Assembly (NCBI GenBank): GCA_024405875.1
Contig: JAKSOA010000021.1
Location: forward strand, 1-34,438
DNA length: 34,438 nt
Direction: 5' to 3'
Origin: Paludibacteraceae bacterium
Lineage (GTDB): Bacteria > Bacteroidota > Bacteroidia > Bacteroidales > Paludibacteraceae
In this document: piece after piece, positions 4,036 to 14,952 of the stretch
How the letters are laid out: each line of letters opens with the position of its first letter
How positions within the stretch are numbered: position 1 is the stretch's first letter
The notes under the pieces: model-generated
Databases searched by the model: none
Seen by the model: the letters and a program-made list of their open reading frames with translations, nothing else
What the model was told of the DNA's origin: nothing
Position numbers and translations under genes: made by a program

Positions 4036-5337
4036 ATGAAAATACGTGCTATTGTTCTTGCGTTATTGCTGCCTGTCTCAGGGTGCCTGCTGGCGGAAAC
4101 TATGCTTGCGGTTAATCTGAAGGACGCCACAGATCTGTATGTAGCCAGTGATGTGGACTCCATCTCATTTTTTGATGATGAATTAATAGAGTTGTCAGAT
4201 AGCAAGAAATGTTACAAGGAGGACCCATATAAGAAGACCATTACGTTTTTGTTTGACTCACTTCTTTGGAGAAAATGGAAGCCTACCAACATTGAGGTAA
4301 GGGGCTCATTTAATGATTGGGGAGATGAGACCAAATATTTTCTTCAAAGAGTGGATACGGCTAAAGTGCGTCCTATGTGGGCATTGACTCTTCCGTATTC
4401 AGCAGTTAAGTTTCCCGGTAACAGTGGTCAGCCTGAATTCAAGTTTGTAATAAACGGTTCCTGGCAGGAACCGCCATCGTGGCTGACACCTGGGTATAAA
4501 TTCAGTGGAACAAGCAATAACCAGATAATAGTCTATTCCACAGATAATCTTGAAGAGATTAAGGCTAAGAATAAAATAGCAAGTACCAAGAAGACACTAA
4601 GTGCCTTTGACCTTACCACGCAACAAGGTCGTGAGGATATTTCAAATGTGAGAATTGTTCCGGGAACCAAGTGTCTTATGCGTTGCTACCATCCGTTTAA
4701 ATACACTACATCGGACCGCAATAGCACTGAGTTTGAGCGTGTCAAGCAGGTTAAGATGTTCTTTGAGGAGTATGGCATAAAGACAGATATATGCCTCTCA
4801 AAGAATCAAACCAATGACCTTGTGAAGGTTACAATAGGCGGCGTCTCCAAAACAGAAGAGATTTCAGAGTATTACCAGAATCTTATTGATAATGACAAGG
4901 TTGTATATATAGGTTACCCTGATAGTGAGACAGATTACTATGACTGCTATCATAATCCTCGCAGTGCCAAGGTTGGCGGATGGGTAGGTCAGGTTATTGA
5001 CGCTATTGTTGATGACAACCACGATGTCCCCATCTCAATCCACTGCCGCATAGGAACAGACCGTACTGGTTTCTTCTGTGCTCTTATAGGGGTTATGTGC
5101 GGAGCCTCATTTGAAGAGGTTACTGCAGATTATCAACGCAGTAATAATATGTATATAAAGGAGTACCGAGACGCCAAGATGATGAAGGTGGCGTTTGAGG
5201 GACTGCTTGATGTAGAGGACGTCTCAAAAGTTTCTGACCTTAAAAGTGCGGTAATCAATTATTTTGTTAATGGCGGATATACAACGCAGGAAAAAGTTGA
5301 CAAAATGATTGAAAAACTGAACAGTTCAATAAAATAA
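4036..5337 (+). CDS. exported protein: CBM48-like glycan-binding domain plus Cys-based phosphatase domain
   Basis: 433 residues. Signal peptide at about 1-20; PVSGC (Cys17) fits a lipobox, but cleavage after LLA20 by signal peptidase I is also possible. Residues 27-46 carry the ...VASDVDSISFFD motif often seen near the N-terminus of Bacteroidota exported proteins. Residues about 84-168 look like a CBM48/AMPK-beta glycogen-binding domain: VRGSFNDWG (Trp95), EFKFVINGSW (Lys136, Trp143) and SNNQIIVYS (Asn161/162) line up with the glucan-contacting W100, K126, W133 and N150 of AMPK beta1. Residues about 200-410 hold a tyrosine/dual-specificity phosphatase domain with the loop HCRIGTDRTG (nucleophile Cys337, Arg343). 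I infer dephosphorylation of a glycan, or glycan-directed anchoring of a phosphatase. The loop is not the CxAGxGR signature of laforin/SEX4 and looks more like the Y_phosphatase3 type. Confidence 0.78.
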   Translation: MKIRAIVLALLLPVSGCLLAETMLAVNLKDATDLYVASDVDSISFFDDELIELSDSKKCYKEDPYKKTITFLFDSLLWRKWKPTNIEVRGSFNDWGDETKYFLQRVDTAKVRPMWALTLPYSAVKFPGNSGQPEFKFVINGSWQEPPSWLTPGYKFSGTSNNQIIVYSTDNLEEIKAKNKIASTKKTLSAFDLTTQQGREDISNVRIVPGTKCLMRCYHPFKYTTSDRNSTEFERVKQVKMFFEEYGIKTDICLSKNQTNDLVKVTIGGVSKTEEISEYYQNLIDNDKVVYIGYPDSETDYYDCYHNPRSAKVGGWVGQVIDAIVDDNHDVPISIHCRIGTDRTGFFCALIGVMCGASFEEVTADYQRSNNMYIKEYRDAKMMKVAFEGLLDVEDVSKVSDLKSAVINYFVNGGYTTQEKVDKMIEKLNSSIK

Positions 5338-9571: not shown

Positions 9572-9591
9572 ATTTGACGGGGGATTTTTGT

Positions 9592-12500
9592 ATGAAGAGA
9601 ATTTTGATTTTCACTCTATGTATTTCGCTAATTTCAGGAGTTATAGTTATGGCAACCACTTTAGATACAAAAGAGGTTAAGGAGAGCATAGAGGCTCTGC
9701 GTAAGGCGTATGAGATTGACGCAGACTCACTATTCATACATCTTGATAAGATGGAGGAGTCTGCCGTTAAATCAAGTGACCCTGTGGAGAAGAGCGTCTA
9801 TTACTCATATCTTGCCGATATTTATCAAGAGTACTATCAACATAACCGCTTCTTCATAGATGACCGTACTGATATAGAGGGTGACGCTCCTGAAGACCGT
9901 AATGAGTGGAGCAAACAGAACTTCCACGATGCCGTGCGCCGTTATTTGGAACTATCCGTAAAAGAGCGTGACGCCTTGCTCAAGGCGGACATATCAGATT
10001 ATAGAGAGTTGATTTCAGCGGGCACTGACTCTGTTCTAAGACCAACAATGTATGATATTCTAATGCACAGGGCTATTGATATAATGAGTTATGACACGGC
10101 GTTTGTATGTGACTCATATCAGCAACTGATTGACGCTCACATTGATGAGCCGCTTGTGCGTGACGCTGTCAAACTTGATTTCGCCGCCTATAAGCACAGT
10201 TTTGACAACAACCAGTATGCCAATGATTTTGCGGAGCAGTACAAGGGTTCTGACCTTTATGTCTATGCTAAGGCGCTGGAGATTGAGAATAATATTAAAA
10301 ACCCAAAAGAGAGGCATCAAGCGTGTGAGGCCGTTATTAATGAGTTCCCCGATAACCCTTACATTAACTCAGTGAAATCCATTATGTATGAGGTGGAACG
10401 TAAGTTTATCTCAATATCCAACCAAGACGGTTCATCATCAATTCTTCTCTATCCGGGTAAAGATGAGACTTTTACAATAACATACGCCAACACTGATTCA
10501 GTTAAAGTTGAGATTTTCAAAATAAATCTAAGTGCGGCGGAGTATGCCGGAATAGGTTGGTACTCACTAAAGGAGAAACACTTGAAACTTGTTAGTTCAG
10601 AGATTGTAAATCTGCCCGCATTTGATGATTTTGAGCGACACACAGTACCGTATGTGGTTAAAGAGCCGCAGTGTGGCATCTATCTTCTGAAAATATCAGA
10701 CTGCGGAAATCCAGATGAATTGCAGGCGGAAACAGAGTTCTATGTCACAAAATATATGACCTGCTCAAGGTTGTCACACAACGGAACAGGGGAGGTTTAT
10801 GTGGTTGACCGTCTTTCAGGAGAGCCTCAAAAGGGTGTCACCCTGCATTGCAAAAATGATAAGGGGAAGGAGATTGATGTTAAGAGCGGAGATTACGGAA
10901 TAGCGGTTATCCCTGATGGTTTTGGCAGACGGGTGAGGTACACTTTGGAATCGGGGAGAGATAAGTTTTATCCTGAGAATGACCTGAATTGTTACAAATA
11001 CGGTGAAGATTTGTCAAAGCACTATAATGTCTCATTCTTCCTTGACCGAGGTGTCTATCGTCCCGGTCAGAAGGTTATGGCAAAGGGTATTCTCTATACA
11101 CGAGAGGGTAATAACTATAACCTTGTGACGGAGCAGGAACTTGTTATAACACTAAAAGACGCCAATGGCACGGATATAAAGTCACAAAAGGTGACTGCCA
11201 ACGCATACGGTTCTTTCTACACTGAGTTTGAGATACCCACAGGTCTGCTCAGCGGTAATTTCTCCATCTACAGCAAATATGGTGGCAAGTCATTCAAAGT
11301 GGAGGAGTACAAGCGTCCCACATTTGAGGTGAGCGTGGATAGTGTTAAGGCGAACACAATATATGACCCCATTACGGTAAAAGGTAACAGCCGTTACTAT
11401 CGTGGTACAGGCACTGGAGAGGCGAAGGTAAGTTACTCTGTCTCATCAGCACCTGTCTATTTCTGTAATTGGATTATGCCTCAGATTAAGAGCCACGTTG
11501 GTTCAGGTGAGTCGGTTTGTGACCACGATGGCAATTTCATTTTCTCATTCACACCTGATATTGCCGTTGAGAACACTCATCCGTTCTACCGTCTTTTAAT
11601 AACAGTTAATGTCACTGATGCCTCTGGTGAGACGCAAAGTGCAACTCACACCCTTATGATAGGTGAGACAAGTTTCTCTCTGGTGTTCCCTTTGTCGGGG
11701 CTGACAGACCGTGACAAACTTACCGATACGGCTCCAAAGGCATACGATACCGCAGGCAATGCCATTAAATTGAGTGGCAAGTATGTTATTTCAGACATCT
11801 CTGACACTGAGGTGGCATCTGGTGATTTCACTACTGGGACAAATATTGACCTCAGCCGCCTTGAGAGTGGAAAATATGATATTAGAATGACCGCCAAAGA
11901 TGAAAAGGGCAGGCAGATTGACTACAAATCCACTTTCACCCTCTATTCTATAGATGACAAGAAACCCGCTGAAGAGTCTCTGCTGTGGCTTATCCCTCTG
12001 AAAACGGAGTGCGGTAGCAATGAGAACGCAGAGTTTGTATTGGGCTCATCATTTGACAGCCACATACTTATGGAGGTCTATGACCAGCAGGTGCTTGTTG
12101 AACGTAGTATAGTTGATGTAAAATCAAAATGCTCCCGCTTCAGAGTTAAGTACAAGGGGTCATCCTCTGACCGCATATATATAAAGTTCCTTGCTGTTAA
12201 GAACGGCAAGGTGGAGGCTAAGGAACTTGCTATAAGCCGTATTCAGAAACCACGGAATCTGAAGATGGAACTTACGCATATAAAACAGGTTTATGCTCCT
12301 GGTGACAAGGATAAGTGGAGTGTGCGCATAACAGATGTGGACGGTAACCCCATAACCGCAGAACTGCTTGCCTCAATGTATGACCTCAGTCTTGACGCCA
12401 TTTGCGGCAACCAATGGTCATTTGACCCCGTTCAGATATACTATAAGCAGCCTAATGGTTGGAATTTCAGATGGTACACATCAAATATATATTGCGGAGA

Positions 12501-14952
12501 TGACTATTCTGAAAGAGTTACATCGTGGTACTCATTCTCATATCCAACATTGAATATGTTCGGCTTTAACATATTCTACAGCCGTTATTACACATACGGA
12601 ATGCGTCAGGGTCTTGGTGTTATGGAGAAGTCTATGGCTGTGAACTCTATGATGGCTGACGCTACGGCTGATAACTTTGCAGAAACAGAGGAGTCTGCTG
12701 ATATGATTCCATCTCCTGATTCTGATGAAACCGCTGTCTTACGTTCAAACTTTGCTGAGACAGCCTTCTTCTATCCTCAGATAAATGCTGAGAATGGCTC
12801 TGCTGAAATTGAATTCACCGCACCTGATGCTCTCACAAGTTGGAAGATAATGCTCCTCGCACATAATAAGGAGTTGCGCACGGCTCTCTTTACTGACACT
12901 ATAATTACACAGAAAAAACTCTCTGTAAATACAAATCTGCCACGCTTTGTCCGCACTTCAGACTCACTGACACTTGCCGCGACTATTGACAATCTGTCAG
13001 AGTCAGCGGTTGTCACAGATGTGAAGTGGAGTGTTGTTGACGCCTTGACAAATGAGGTTGTGGCGTCAAGTTCAAGCAGTGTTGATGTTAAAGCCGGGTC
13101 GCAGGGGGTTACAAAATGTAGCGTAAAAGTACCTATGACGGCATCGTTGCTAAAACTGACGGTGACGGCTAAAGGCGGTGACTATACTGATGGGGTGGAG
13201 GCTCTTATTCCCGTCCTCTCATCACAGACTCTTGTTACGGAGAGTATGCCAATTGTCATTAGCACAGAGGGCGAGTTCAACTACAACTTTGAGTCTATGG
13301 CAACCAACAATTCACAGACTCTTATAAATCGTGGTTATTCTATTTCCATCACCCCCGATGCCGCGACAATGGCTCTTCAATCGCTGCCGTATGTTGGTGA
13401 GCCTCAGTATGAGAATGCTGTTGATTACGCTGTAGCGTACTATGTAAACTGGCTTTCAGAGAAGTCTGTTTCCGGGAATCTGCAACTTGCCTCATATCTT
13501 AGAAGGCTCAAGGAGGGGCTGCAAGATGTGAACTTTCCGCTTGAGGCTAATCAGGAACTTAAGAACATACTGCTTCAGGAGTCCCCTTGGGTTATGGACG
13601 CCAAATTTGAGACTGAACGCAACCGTTCACTCGTAGAGTTGCTTGATAGTAAGGCGCAGGAGGGCAGACGCGAGCAGTGGTTGAGAAAACTGCTTAAATT
13701 GCAAAATTCAGACGGCGGTTTCTCTTGGTTCCCTGAGGGCAAGTCATCATCTTATATAACCCTGTTTGTGGTGGAGCAGTTCAAAAAGACAGGTTGCTCA
13801 CGTTCTGAGTTCAAGAAGGCTGTCAAGTATCTTGTATCTGAGATGGAAAATGCTTATCAATCTATTTTGAAGCAGAAGGGCAAACCTGCGGCGTCTATGT
13901 ATGATATGAAGGTTATGATGCTTGCCGGGAAACTCTCAAATGAGTCATCGGAGTACTACTATAAACAGGTGAAGAGGGATTGGAAATCATACACACTGCC
14001 AGAGCAGGCTGTTATAGCCAAATTGTTCCAAACATACGGTGATACGGCTGAGGCTAATAAGGTTATTGATAACATACGAGGGTTCTCCGTTTTCAAACCT
14101 ACATTAGGCATCTATTGGCCTAACACTTCAAATATCTATACTCAGTCAGAGTATATAAAGGCGTTTGCCGCTGTTGACCCCGATGCCGCTGAACTTGCAA
14201 AGATGAAGATGTGGCTGCTCTTCAACAAGCAGGCTAATATGTGGGGTAACTCCATTGCTACGGCTGATGCCATTGATGCTTTGGTTAATGCGGGCAACGC
14301 TGTGGGACAGACAGGCAGTCACATAGTTGTAAAGGTGGGCGATGTGACTCTTGACAGTGACTCGGCACAATGGGCTGCCTCTATTGACCATAATTTCACA
14401 CAATCTGAGGTTGATAAGAGGCTTGCAGAGGTCTCAGTCTCAAAGAGTGGTAATGCTCTGACTCTTGGCGCCGCATATTGGCAATATACTGAGGATATTG
14501 ACAAGGTGCGGAAGCACACAGACAGCCGCCTCTCACTAAAGAAAGAGTATTATGTTGAGTCGGGCGGTGTGCTTAAACCTGTTGATATAAACGGTGGAGA
14601 GATAAAGGTTGGAGAGATTGTAACAGTGCGTCTGGTGGTGACGGCAGACCGTGAGATGAGTTTTGTGCATCTTAGGGATTTGCGTCCTGCTGGTCTTGAA
14701 CCTGCACAGCAAGTCTCTCGCCGTGTTGTTATGAGTGGTCTTATATACTATTTAAGTTCAAAAGATTGCTCTACAGACCTCTTCTTTGATTATATGCCTA
14801 AAGGCACATACATTTTTGAATATCAGTTGAAAGCAAACGGAGCGGGTGATTTTGCGGCAGGTTTCGCCACAATTGAGAGTATGTACTCCAATGACGTTAA
14901 GTCACAAAGTGATGGCTGCAGAATGGTAATTTCTCCTTTCTCCTTTAATTAA
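9592..14952 (+). CDS. alpha-2-macroglobulin family protein, thioester motif absent
   Basis: The ATG at 9592 is preferred over an in-frame TTG at 9574 because it opens directly on a signal peptide (MKRILIFTLCISLISGVIVMA), giving 1786 residues. The protein is exported, without a lipobox. N-terminal helical repeats (about 25-270) precede MG-type beta domains; an MG2-like stretch near VYRPGQKVMAKGILY is followed by EVEEYKRP-like segments. The alpha-2-macroglobulin core begins near residue 1050 (RSNFAETAFFYPQI ... APDALTSWKIMLLAHN) and a helical thioester-like domain near 1260-1560. Where homologues have C-x-E-Q, this protein has N1275-A-V-D1278 after PQYE, so no thioester can form. Bacterial homologues are thought to trap proteases; this one would have to work without covalent capture. 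rimM starts 4 bases after its stop. Confidence 0.9.
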   Translation: MKRILIFTLCISLISGVIVMATTLDTKEVKESIEALRKAYEIDADSLFIHLDKMEESAVKSSDPVEKSVYYSYLADIYQEYYQHNRFFIDDRTDIEGDAPEDRNEWSKQNFHDAVRRYLELSVKERDALLKADISDYRELISAGTDSVLRPTMYDILMHRAIDIMSYDTAFVCDSYQQLIDAHIDEPLVRDAVKLDFAAYKHSFDNNQYANDFAEQYKGSDLYVYAKALEIENNIKNPKERHQACEAVINEFPDNPYINSVKSIMYEVERKFISISNQDGSSSILLYPGKDETFTITYANTDSVKVEIFKINLSAAEYAGIGWYSLKEKHLKLVSSEIVNLPAFDDFERHTVPYVVKEPQCGIYLLKISDCGNPDELQAETEFYVTKYMTCSRLSHNGTGEVYVVDRLSGEPQKGVTLHCKNDKGKEIDVKSGDYGIAVIPDGFGRRVRYTLESGRDKFYPENDLNCYKYGEDLSKHYNVSFFLDRGVYRPGQKVMAKGILYTREGNNYNLVTEQELVITLKDANGTDIKSQKVTANAYGSFYTEFEIPTGLLSGNFSIYSKYGGKSFKVEEYKRPTFEVSVDSVKANTIYDPITVKGNSRYYRGTGTGEAKVSYSVSSAPVYFCNWIMPQIKSHVGSGESVCDHDGNFIFSFTPDIAVENTHPFYRLLITVNVTDASGETQSATHTLMIGETSFSLVFPLSGLTDRDKLTDTAPKAYDTAGNAIKLSGKYVISDISDTEVASGDFTTGTNIDLSRLESGKYDIRMTAKDEKGRQIDYKSTFTLYSIDDKKPAEESLLWLIPLKTECGSNENAEFVLGSSFDSHILMEVYDQQVLVERSIVDVKSKCSRFRVKYKGSSSDRIYIKFLAVKNGKVEAKELAISRIQKPRNLKMELTHIKQVYAPGDKDKWSVRITDVDGNPITAELLASMYDLSLDAICGNQWSFDPVQIYYKQPNGWNFRWYTSNIYCGDDYSERVTSWYSFSYPTLNMFGFNIFYSRYYTYGMRQGLGVMEKSMAVNSMMADATADNFAETEESADMIPSPDSDETAVLRSNFAETAFFYPQINAENGSAEIEFTAPDALTSWKIMLLAHNKELRTALFTDTIITQKKLSVNTNLPRFVRTSDSLTLAATIDNLSESAVVTDVKWSVVDALTNEVVASSSSSVDVKAGSQGVTKCSVKVPMTASLLKLTVTAKGGDYTDGVEALIPVLSSQTLVTESMPIVISTEGEFNYNFESMATNNSQTLINRGYSISITPDAATMALQSLPYVGEPQYENAVDYAVAYYVNWLSEKSVSGNLQLASYLRRLKEGLQDVNFPLEANQELKNILLQESPWVMDAKFETERNRSLVELLDSKAQEGRREQWLRKLLKLQNSDGGFSWFPEGKSSSYITLFVVEQFKKTGCSRSEFKKAVKYLVSEMENAYQSILKQKGKPAASMYDMKVMMLAGKLSNESSEYYYKQVKRDWKSYTLPEQAVIAKLFQTYGDTAEANKVIDNIRGFSVFKPTLGIYWPNTSNIYTQSEYIKAFAAVDPDAAELAKMKMWLLFNKQANMWGNSIATADAIDALVNAGNAVGQTGSHIVVKVGDVTLDSDSAQWAASIDHNFTQSEVDKRLAEVSVSKSGNALTLGAAYWQYTEDIDKVRKHTDSRLSLKKEYYVESGGVLKPVDINGGEIKVGEIVTVRLVVTADREMSFVHLRDLRPAGLEPAQQVSRRVVMSGLIYYLSSKDCSTDLFFDYMPKGTYIFEYQLKANGAGDFAAGFATIESMYSNDVKSQSDGCRMVISPFSFN

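Follow-up and report, generated by a model that had tools for sequence, protein, structure and literature searches.

A gene in the genome of a Paludibacteraceae bacterium encodes a protein in which a CBM48-like module is joined to a Cys-phosphatase of the Y_phosphatase3 type, and this protein belongs to a family of 21 loci in 18 Bacteroidales genomes, with one Photobacterium homologue that has both parts. From sequence comparisons, we put the probability that these proteins are bacterial alpha-glucan phosphatases, convergent with laforin and SEX4, at about one half, and speak of convergence because the catalytic lineage is different. The sequences are most simply read as those of a phosphatase whose substrate would be phosphorylated alpha-glucans or a compound that these carry. 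To our knowledge, the known alpha-glucan phosphatases are eukaryotic. Laforin consists of a CBM20 followed by a DSP domain, SEX4 of a DSP domain followed by a CBM48, and LSF2 has surface binding sites in place of a CBM, while the glucan-phosphatase loop reads CxAGxGR.

In the available text of PMC6243121, SEX4 is likewise described as DSP plus CBM48, and a mutant of this CBM48 lost 95% of its amylopectin affinity; all glucan phosphatases known so far are DSPs according to the accessible part of PMC13011383. Among the titles and abstract openings listed in the literature searched, none pointed to a glucan phosphatase from bacteria or to a fusion of a CBM with a phosphatase. The word "laforin" does not occur in the available portion of a 2024 review of prokaryotic alpha-glucan enzymes (PMC11046441), where the 12 listed of the 18 places with "phosphatase" all concern trehalose- or sucrose-phosphate phosphatases or HAD enzymes.

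In the mechanism we propose, the N-terminal CBM48-like module would dock outside the cell on starch, glycogen or maltodextrin, and the C-terminal Y_phosphatase3 domain would remove phosphate monoesters, presumably from phospho-glucan. Cys337 would be the nucleophile, Arg343 would bind the phosphate, and Asp342 in the loop may serve as general acid, by analogy with MptpB. Removal of phosphate could then clear a block to amylases and pullulanases and so benefit degradation. If this is correct, glucan dephosphorylation arose at least twice, and gut bacteria own a tool for phospho-starch.

The window gene and its protein

The open reading frame lies at positions 4036 to 5337 on the forward strand of the window (the whole stretch of 34,438 nucleotides analysed here), as the sequence-only reading had it, and its product is 433 amino acids long. 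By sequence comparison the gene is real, because its product is 78% identical to each of two orthologues and dN/dS is low, and purifying selection on it is strong. Nei-Gojobori dN/dS was 0.063 in the CBM part; the phosphatase part gave values of 0.026 and 0.056, and dS, at 1.4 to 2.9, was near saturation. A search of NCBIfam with the protein gave no match.

The first 53 residues (4036 to 4194, forward strand) form a signal region and a leader that diverges from the orthologues: identity is 37% to 40% over 35 aligned residues, compared with 80% and 88% for the two domains. Weak matches to this leader occur at three further sites of the same genome (E 0.04 to 0.09). The orthologues have lipoprotein-like leaders with acidic and proline linkers, which the first 53 residues of the window protein do not resemble. 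The protein had been proposed to be exported, and this is indeed probable from its hydrophobic N-terminus, which by eye includes a possible lipobox, VSGC. Four other members (L003, L004, L007 and L008) also have lipoprotein-like N-termini.

On one side the gene is flanked by genes for an aldo/keto reductase and a flavin reductase, and on the other by those for histidinol dehydrogenase and HisG; a Pfam scan of the ORFs within the window found no glucan-related gene beside it. The window also contains a 1792-aa ORF (9574 to 14952, forward strand) that follows an ABC-ATPase gene. Elsewhere in the same genome, a long-form paralogue (L002, G000:C9:23943-25103) is interrupted by one in-frame TAA, and intact relatives of it are found in two other genomes (G007 and G137).

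The phosphatase domain and its loop

The Cys-phosphatase domain spans residues 188 to 430 (4597 to 5325, forward strand). Y_phosphatase3 (PF13350) matched the window protein at E 4.7e-12, with 46.8 bits against a cut-off of 22.2; no other phosphatase family exceeded its cut-off there. Among the 19 aligned members of the family, PF13350 matched every one at E <= 1; it was above cut-off in all 18 with scores shown, and the match in L035 was at E <= 1. An hhalign comparison with canonical Y_phosphatase3 covered 76 columns surrounding the loop and gave E 2.7e-11. The DSPc family matched 4 of the 19 members, at 12.1 to 14.7 bits against a cut-off of 33.5, and one member (L013) was also just past the cut-off of Y_phosphatase (PF00102; 21.0 versus 20.9).

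The P-loop HCRIGTDRTG occupies residues 336 to 345 (5041 to 5070, forward strand), and by alignment it contains the nucleophile Cys337, the probable general acid Asp342, and Arg343. Cys337 and Arg343, the residues named earlier in the phosphatase loop, are invariant in all 19 aligned members, together with H336, G340, D342, T344 and G345 of the loop and R216, H219, D251 and R378. The family loop reads HC[RAS][ILV]G[TSA]DRTG throughout (19/19), which bears out the earlier remark that it is not of the CxAGxGR type. Set beside alpha-glucan phosphatases, all 19 members have the CX5R signature, and the DSP domain and the CxAGxGR loop are lacking.

A search with the family profile hit MptpB (1ywf) with E 1.4e-4. 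According to the available text of PMC3091653, the MptpB family is a phosphatase domain only, its loop Asp is catalytic, and its loop Lys is important for phosphoinositide binding; the accessible part of a paper on one PTP (PMC5779698) puts the catalytic Asp of PTPs some 30 residues upstream of their loop. Like MptpB-type lipid phosphatases (HCXXGKDR[TA]G), the family keeps the loop Cys, Asp and Arg, but it carries a fused CBM-like module and has Thr, Ser or Ala in place of the loop Lys in 19 of 19 members, a Lys shared by all seven canonical Y_phosphatase3 proteins compared from the phylum. With the loop Asp kept and the Lys absent, the family is thus without the MptpB lipid-binding mark, and by its loop sequence it belongs neither to the DSP glucan phosphatases nor to the Lys-bearing MptpB group. 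An unrooted tree placed the family together with the Photobacterium protein on one side of a branch of 99/99 support and eight canonical proteins on the other.

The CBM48-like module

Residues 78 to 168 (4267 to 4539, forward strand) form a CBM48/AMPK-beta-like module, identified by a sub-threshold Pfam match, by a profile compared with the PDB and by hhalign. AMPK1_CBM (PF16561) covers exactly these residues at E 0.0053 with 17.4 bits, below its cut-off of 26.8 bits. At E <= 1 it matches 8 of the 19 aligned members and fails to match the other 11, and the sole member past the cut-off is L008 (31.6 bits, E 2e-7). A profile of nine member CBM sequences found as its best PDB matches the GH13 amylase entries 8dl1 and 8dge (E 2.8e-4), with the AMPK beta CBMs at E of about 0.01. 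No publication for PDB 8dhi was found in the literature searched. Aligned by hhalign with five CBM-type domains of related genomes, two of which pass AMPK1_CBM, two of which are sub-threshold and one of which was picked by eye, the profile gave E 4.1e-9 over 62 columns. The PDB, hhalign and 18-genome comparisons (the last described below) all derive from this one nine-sequence profile.

The architecture first suggested, a CBM-like part with a Cys-phosphatase, is supported, with PF16561 below and PF13350 above its cut-off, and so is the architectural likeness to laforin and SEX4. As in these enzymes, one polypeptide combines a CX5R phosphatase with what is, to judge from sequence profiles, a probable CBM of the starch type; its order, CBM first, is that of laforin, and the probable CBM type, CBM48, is that of SEX4. 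It differs from both in its catalytic domain, which is Y_phosphatase3 with a loop Asp (HCxxGxDRTG) rather than DSP, in being bacterial, and in being probably exported in Bacteroidales.

The glucan-contacting residues proposed from the window sequence, Trp95, Lys136, Trp143 and Asn161/162, were numbered correctly, as were the two loop residues, and are kept to differing degrees. Trp95 (4318 to 4320) and Asn162 (4519 to 4521), both on the forward strand, are widely kept, in 18 and 17 of the 19 members, but Lys136 (4441 to 4443, forward strand) is found in 10, Trp143 (4462 to 4464, forward strand) in 7 in the alignment used, and Asn161 in 5. The long members, of about 590 aa, carry an extra N-terminal domain that we call A3, and the pattern of Lys136 follows it: the residue is present in 10 of the 11 members without A3, the exception being L020, which has lost Trp95 as well, and in none of the 8 with A3. 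Trp143 is also absent from all eight A3-bearing members. The loss of Lys136 in these members may represent a single event, because the eight are close kin. The CBM part also contains GNSG at residues 128 to 131 (4417 to 4428, forward strand), an instance of the family motif GN[SC]G that is replaced by ANSG in L011 and is found in the Photobacterium protein too.

Distribution of the family

Within the same GTDB family, 36 of 200 genomes match the window protein at E <= 1e-3. Seventeen of these have an extended relative (E < 1e-30), and the other 19, which have a short match near the loop alone, were excluded from the family members. In the genus of the window the family is present in 8 of 16 genomes. 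It occurs in 3 of 393 genomes sampled across the order, one of them outside the GTDB family. In a sample of the phylum, 3 of 395 genomes match at E <= 1e-8, namely the window's own genome and two with short near-loop matches. A scan of contigs returned two records with names, each of them a Paludibacteraceae MAG obtained from horse faeces. The alignment used throughout comprises 19 of the 21 loci, omitting L002 with its in-frame stop and G070:C2; L003 and L004 represent G141 and G137 in it.

Among 72,556 plasmid records, three were matched by the window protein: one extended match, in Photobacterium, and two in Sphingopyxis that cover 15% of the query around the loop. The phage search gave no match and the viral contigs contained no relative. 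A mobile or phage origin of the gene was rejected on these results, with phages and viral contigs empty and a single extended match among plasmids.

Modules shared with GH13 enzymes

Searched against the 18 family-bearing genomes at E <= 0.05, the CBM profile gave 57 matches, of which 21 are family members and 36 lie outside the family. The strongest eight of these 36 are frames of 892 to 936 aa, one in each of the eight genomes of genus g1, with E from 7e-9 to 4e-7. In the four of these frames that were read, the N-terminus is of export type by eye; two (L119 and L122) have CBM_48 and Alpha-amylase domains downstream in Pfam and are pullulanase-like by eye. In a BLASTP search of the 19 family proteins with the N-terminal 150 aa of L119, L010 was matched with 34% identity over 115 aa (E 4e-7). 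Of the remaining non-family matches, 13 or more adjoin a GH13 match, among the GH13 matches listed.

The A3 domain, searched in 24 genomes at E <= 0.01, gave 20 matches, nine in phosphatases and eleven in other proteins. The best of the latter (L080, E 1.3e-40) has an export-type N-terminus and a Pfam Alpha-amylase domain, and is 45% identical to the phosphatase L015 over 148 aa (E 9e-37). The second, L084 (E 4.6e-36), is a 1766-aa frame in which no GH13 part was seen by eye in the stretch read. Among the weaker matches are L086, which has a PKD-like domain, and L087, which has a CotH kinase domain. From these comparisons A3 is not exclusive to starch enzymes, because it also occurs in other large proteins with no GH13 part evident in what was read of them and, weakly, in a CotH-kinase protein. 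A3 itself has no PDB match below E 0.27 and, in the members scanned, no Pfam match above cut-off.

The GH13 enzymes L119 to L122, L080 and L051 resemble the phosphatases in related N-terminal modules (CBM48-like, or A3 in L080) or in a C-terminal tail (L051), and differ from them in that the catalytic domain is GH13 and not a phosphatase (by Pfam in L080, L051, L119 and L122). On sequence evidence, related binding modules accompany GH13 domains in some proteins and phosphatase domains in others, within the same bacteria or their relatives.

Gene neighbourhoods in Bacteroidales

Contexts were compared from the ORFs of 19 Bacteroidales loci (the two G137 loci omitted), with Pfam scans of 20 selected neighbours and of the window's own. 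They are diverse. An alpha-amylase gene (in L051) follows the phosphatase gene L015 by about 40 bp on the same strand, and a pullulanase gene (in L048) is divergent to L012 at a distance of about 180 bp. An adjacent GH13 gene was thus found in 2 of 19 contexts. The probability of at least 2 in 40 adjacent genes, a slight overcount, is about 0.02 for an approximate background of about 0.58% GH13 per gene (201 matches, gene number estimated), which is an upper bound since it counts match pieces. The orthologue context L058 has as neighbours an iron alcohol dehydrogenase and a choloylglycine-hydrolase-like protein, with no glucan link.

Richness in GH13 was not retained as an argument for glucan use. 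In the GTDB family as a whole, 15 of 16 family-bearing genomes have at least 6 GH13 matches, against 76 of 183 others (G000 omitted, at most 7 candidates scored per genome). This difference was set aside as confounded by descent, because the association is significant across the GTDB family and not within genera g1 (P 0.26) or g21 (P 0.69).

The Photobacterium homologue

The extended plasmid-collection match is in Photobacterium sp. DA100 (tblastn E 3e-7, 24.5% identity, 56% of the query). The 368-aa homologue, at 2737 to 3843 of L091 (region L091 and L092), has no listed feature. In a single-pair BLASTP it aligns with residues 82 to 391 of the window protein at E 3e-15; it keeps FTNW, GNSG, RSYHP and HCRLGSDRTG, and it is a Y_phosphatase3 protein in Pfam at E 1.2e-16. 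Its CBM part has no match to AMPK1_CBM or any other Pfam family at E <= 0.1, the equivalent of Lys136 is not Lys, and by eye there is no signal peptide.

The gene is flanked by a GH13 gene, glucosidase-like by eye, and by a debranching-like CBM48-GH13 gene that has a GlgX_C match below cut-off. Within 12 kb lie two LamB porins, MalM, a further GH13, a solute-binding protein that is MalE-like by eye, and an amylo-alpha-1,6-glucosidase. The homologue was not chosen for this context, because it was the sole extended match in the plasmid collection. It is also the only homologue outside Bacteroidales found here, a sample of one, and has a long branch in the tree. With the Photobacterium protein as query, the search found that protein itself and a Paenibacillus match over 50%; the latter was rejected as a two-part relative, its 276-aa ORF beginning near the phosphatase domain with no room for a CBM part.

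The earlier alpha-glucan reading of the window protein gains from the GH13-related modules, the amylase neighbour and the Photobacterium region, but the window gene itself has no glucan neighbour, and of the proposed contacts Trp95 and Asn162 alone are widely kept. Also counting against it are the loss of Lys136 and Trp143 in the A3-bearing members, the members with no AMPK1_CBM match, the presence of A3 in other proteins, and the failure of two CE1-linked CBM48s, described below, to bind glycans. We hold more tentatively, at somewhat less than even odds, that this is a separate bacterial alpha-glucan phosphatase family that acts on extracellular dietary or host phospho-glucan in Bacteroidales and on intracellular glycogen or maltodextrin in Photobacterium. 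Were this so in Photobacterium, some bacterial glycogen would carry phosphate that needs removal, and the region would make bacterial glycogen phosphate directly testable.

Alternative substrates

The alternative that survives best, though we consider it unlikely, is a phosphatase tethered by its CBM to starch or plant material that cuts another phosphoester, such as phytate or sugar or maltodextrin phosphates, for phosphate scavenging. The CBM evidence tells of the location of the enzyme and not of its substrate, and the loop differs from that of known glucan phosphatases, both of which such a function would accommodate. The loop with its Asp is also unlike that of PTP-like phytases, since these have HCxxGxGRT loops, and a Photobacterium homologue that by eye lacks a signal peptide and lies in a maltodextrin/glycogen region is a better fit to a glucan-linked substrate than to scavenging.

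Next, and also improbable in our view, is an exported enzyme that dephosphorylates proteins or lipids and might, for instance, counteract CotH-type extracellular kinases, with the CBM-like module as a spacer, as has been considered for a CE1 esterase. Two Y_phosphatase3 proteins elsewhere in the phylum (L065 and L062) have export-type N-termini by eye, which is consistent with this function. So is the arrangement in G198, where a CotH-kinase gene (9799 to 11202 of L056, reverse strand) converges on the phosphatase gene and, by a mechanical ORF call, the two reading frames overlap by some 60 bp; the kinase and phosphatase are possibly a pair outside the cell. In G150, the CotH-kinase protein L087 (13 to 1908, reverse strand) has a weak A3-like match (E 1.7e-4), which points the same way.

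The spacer role draws on the CBM48-CE1 esterases of Bacteroidota, which, like the present family in the function proposed for it, are exported enzymes pairing a CBM48-type module with a domain that strips a decoration from polysaccharide, but which are esterases of a xylan locus. In the available text of PMC8040265, the CBM48s of DmCE1A and DmCE1B, two Dysgonomonas CE1 esterases, bound no glycan tested, potato starch included; the CE1-linked PDB entries named in that text are absent among the 27 sequences listed for the family CBM profile. Against a phosphoprotein or lipid substrate, the Lys to which the same accessible part of PMC3091653 ascribes phosphoinositide binding in MptpB is missing from 19 of 19 members, the best non-family matches of the CBM profile are GH13-type enzymes, and the Photobacterium gene stands in a maltodextrin/glycogen context.

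That residues 78 to 168 resemble CBM48 by chance is very improbable: the window protein falls below the Pfam cut-off and 11 of 19 members have no match at E <= 1, but L008 is above cut-off, purifying selection is strong, and the PDB, hhalign and 18-genome comparisons, which share one nine-sequence profile, agree.

C-terminal regions

The alpha-glucan phosphatase reading aside, the C-terminal regions of some members vary. In L011, residues of about 405 to 742, the C-terminal half, have no Pfam match below E 0.2 and no NCBIfam match, and are CBM26-like by eye only. A short C-terminal tail of the LYIQRGNEIYNAQGQ type is common to the amylase L051 (10303 to 12612) and the long-form phosphatases L015 and L016, the tail of L051 matching L016 at E 1e-5 and L015 at E 3e-4; it is possibly a sorting tail. 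The short forms L009, L010 and L034 carry a Por_Secre_tail in place of the LYIQRGNEIYNAQGQ-type tail.
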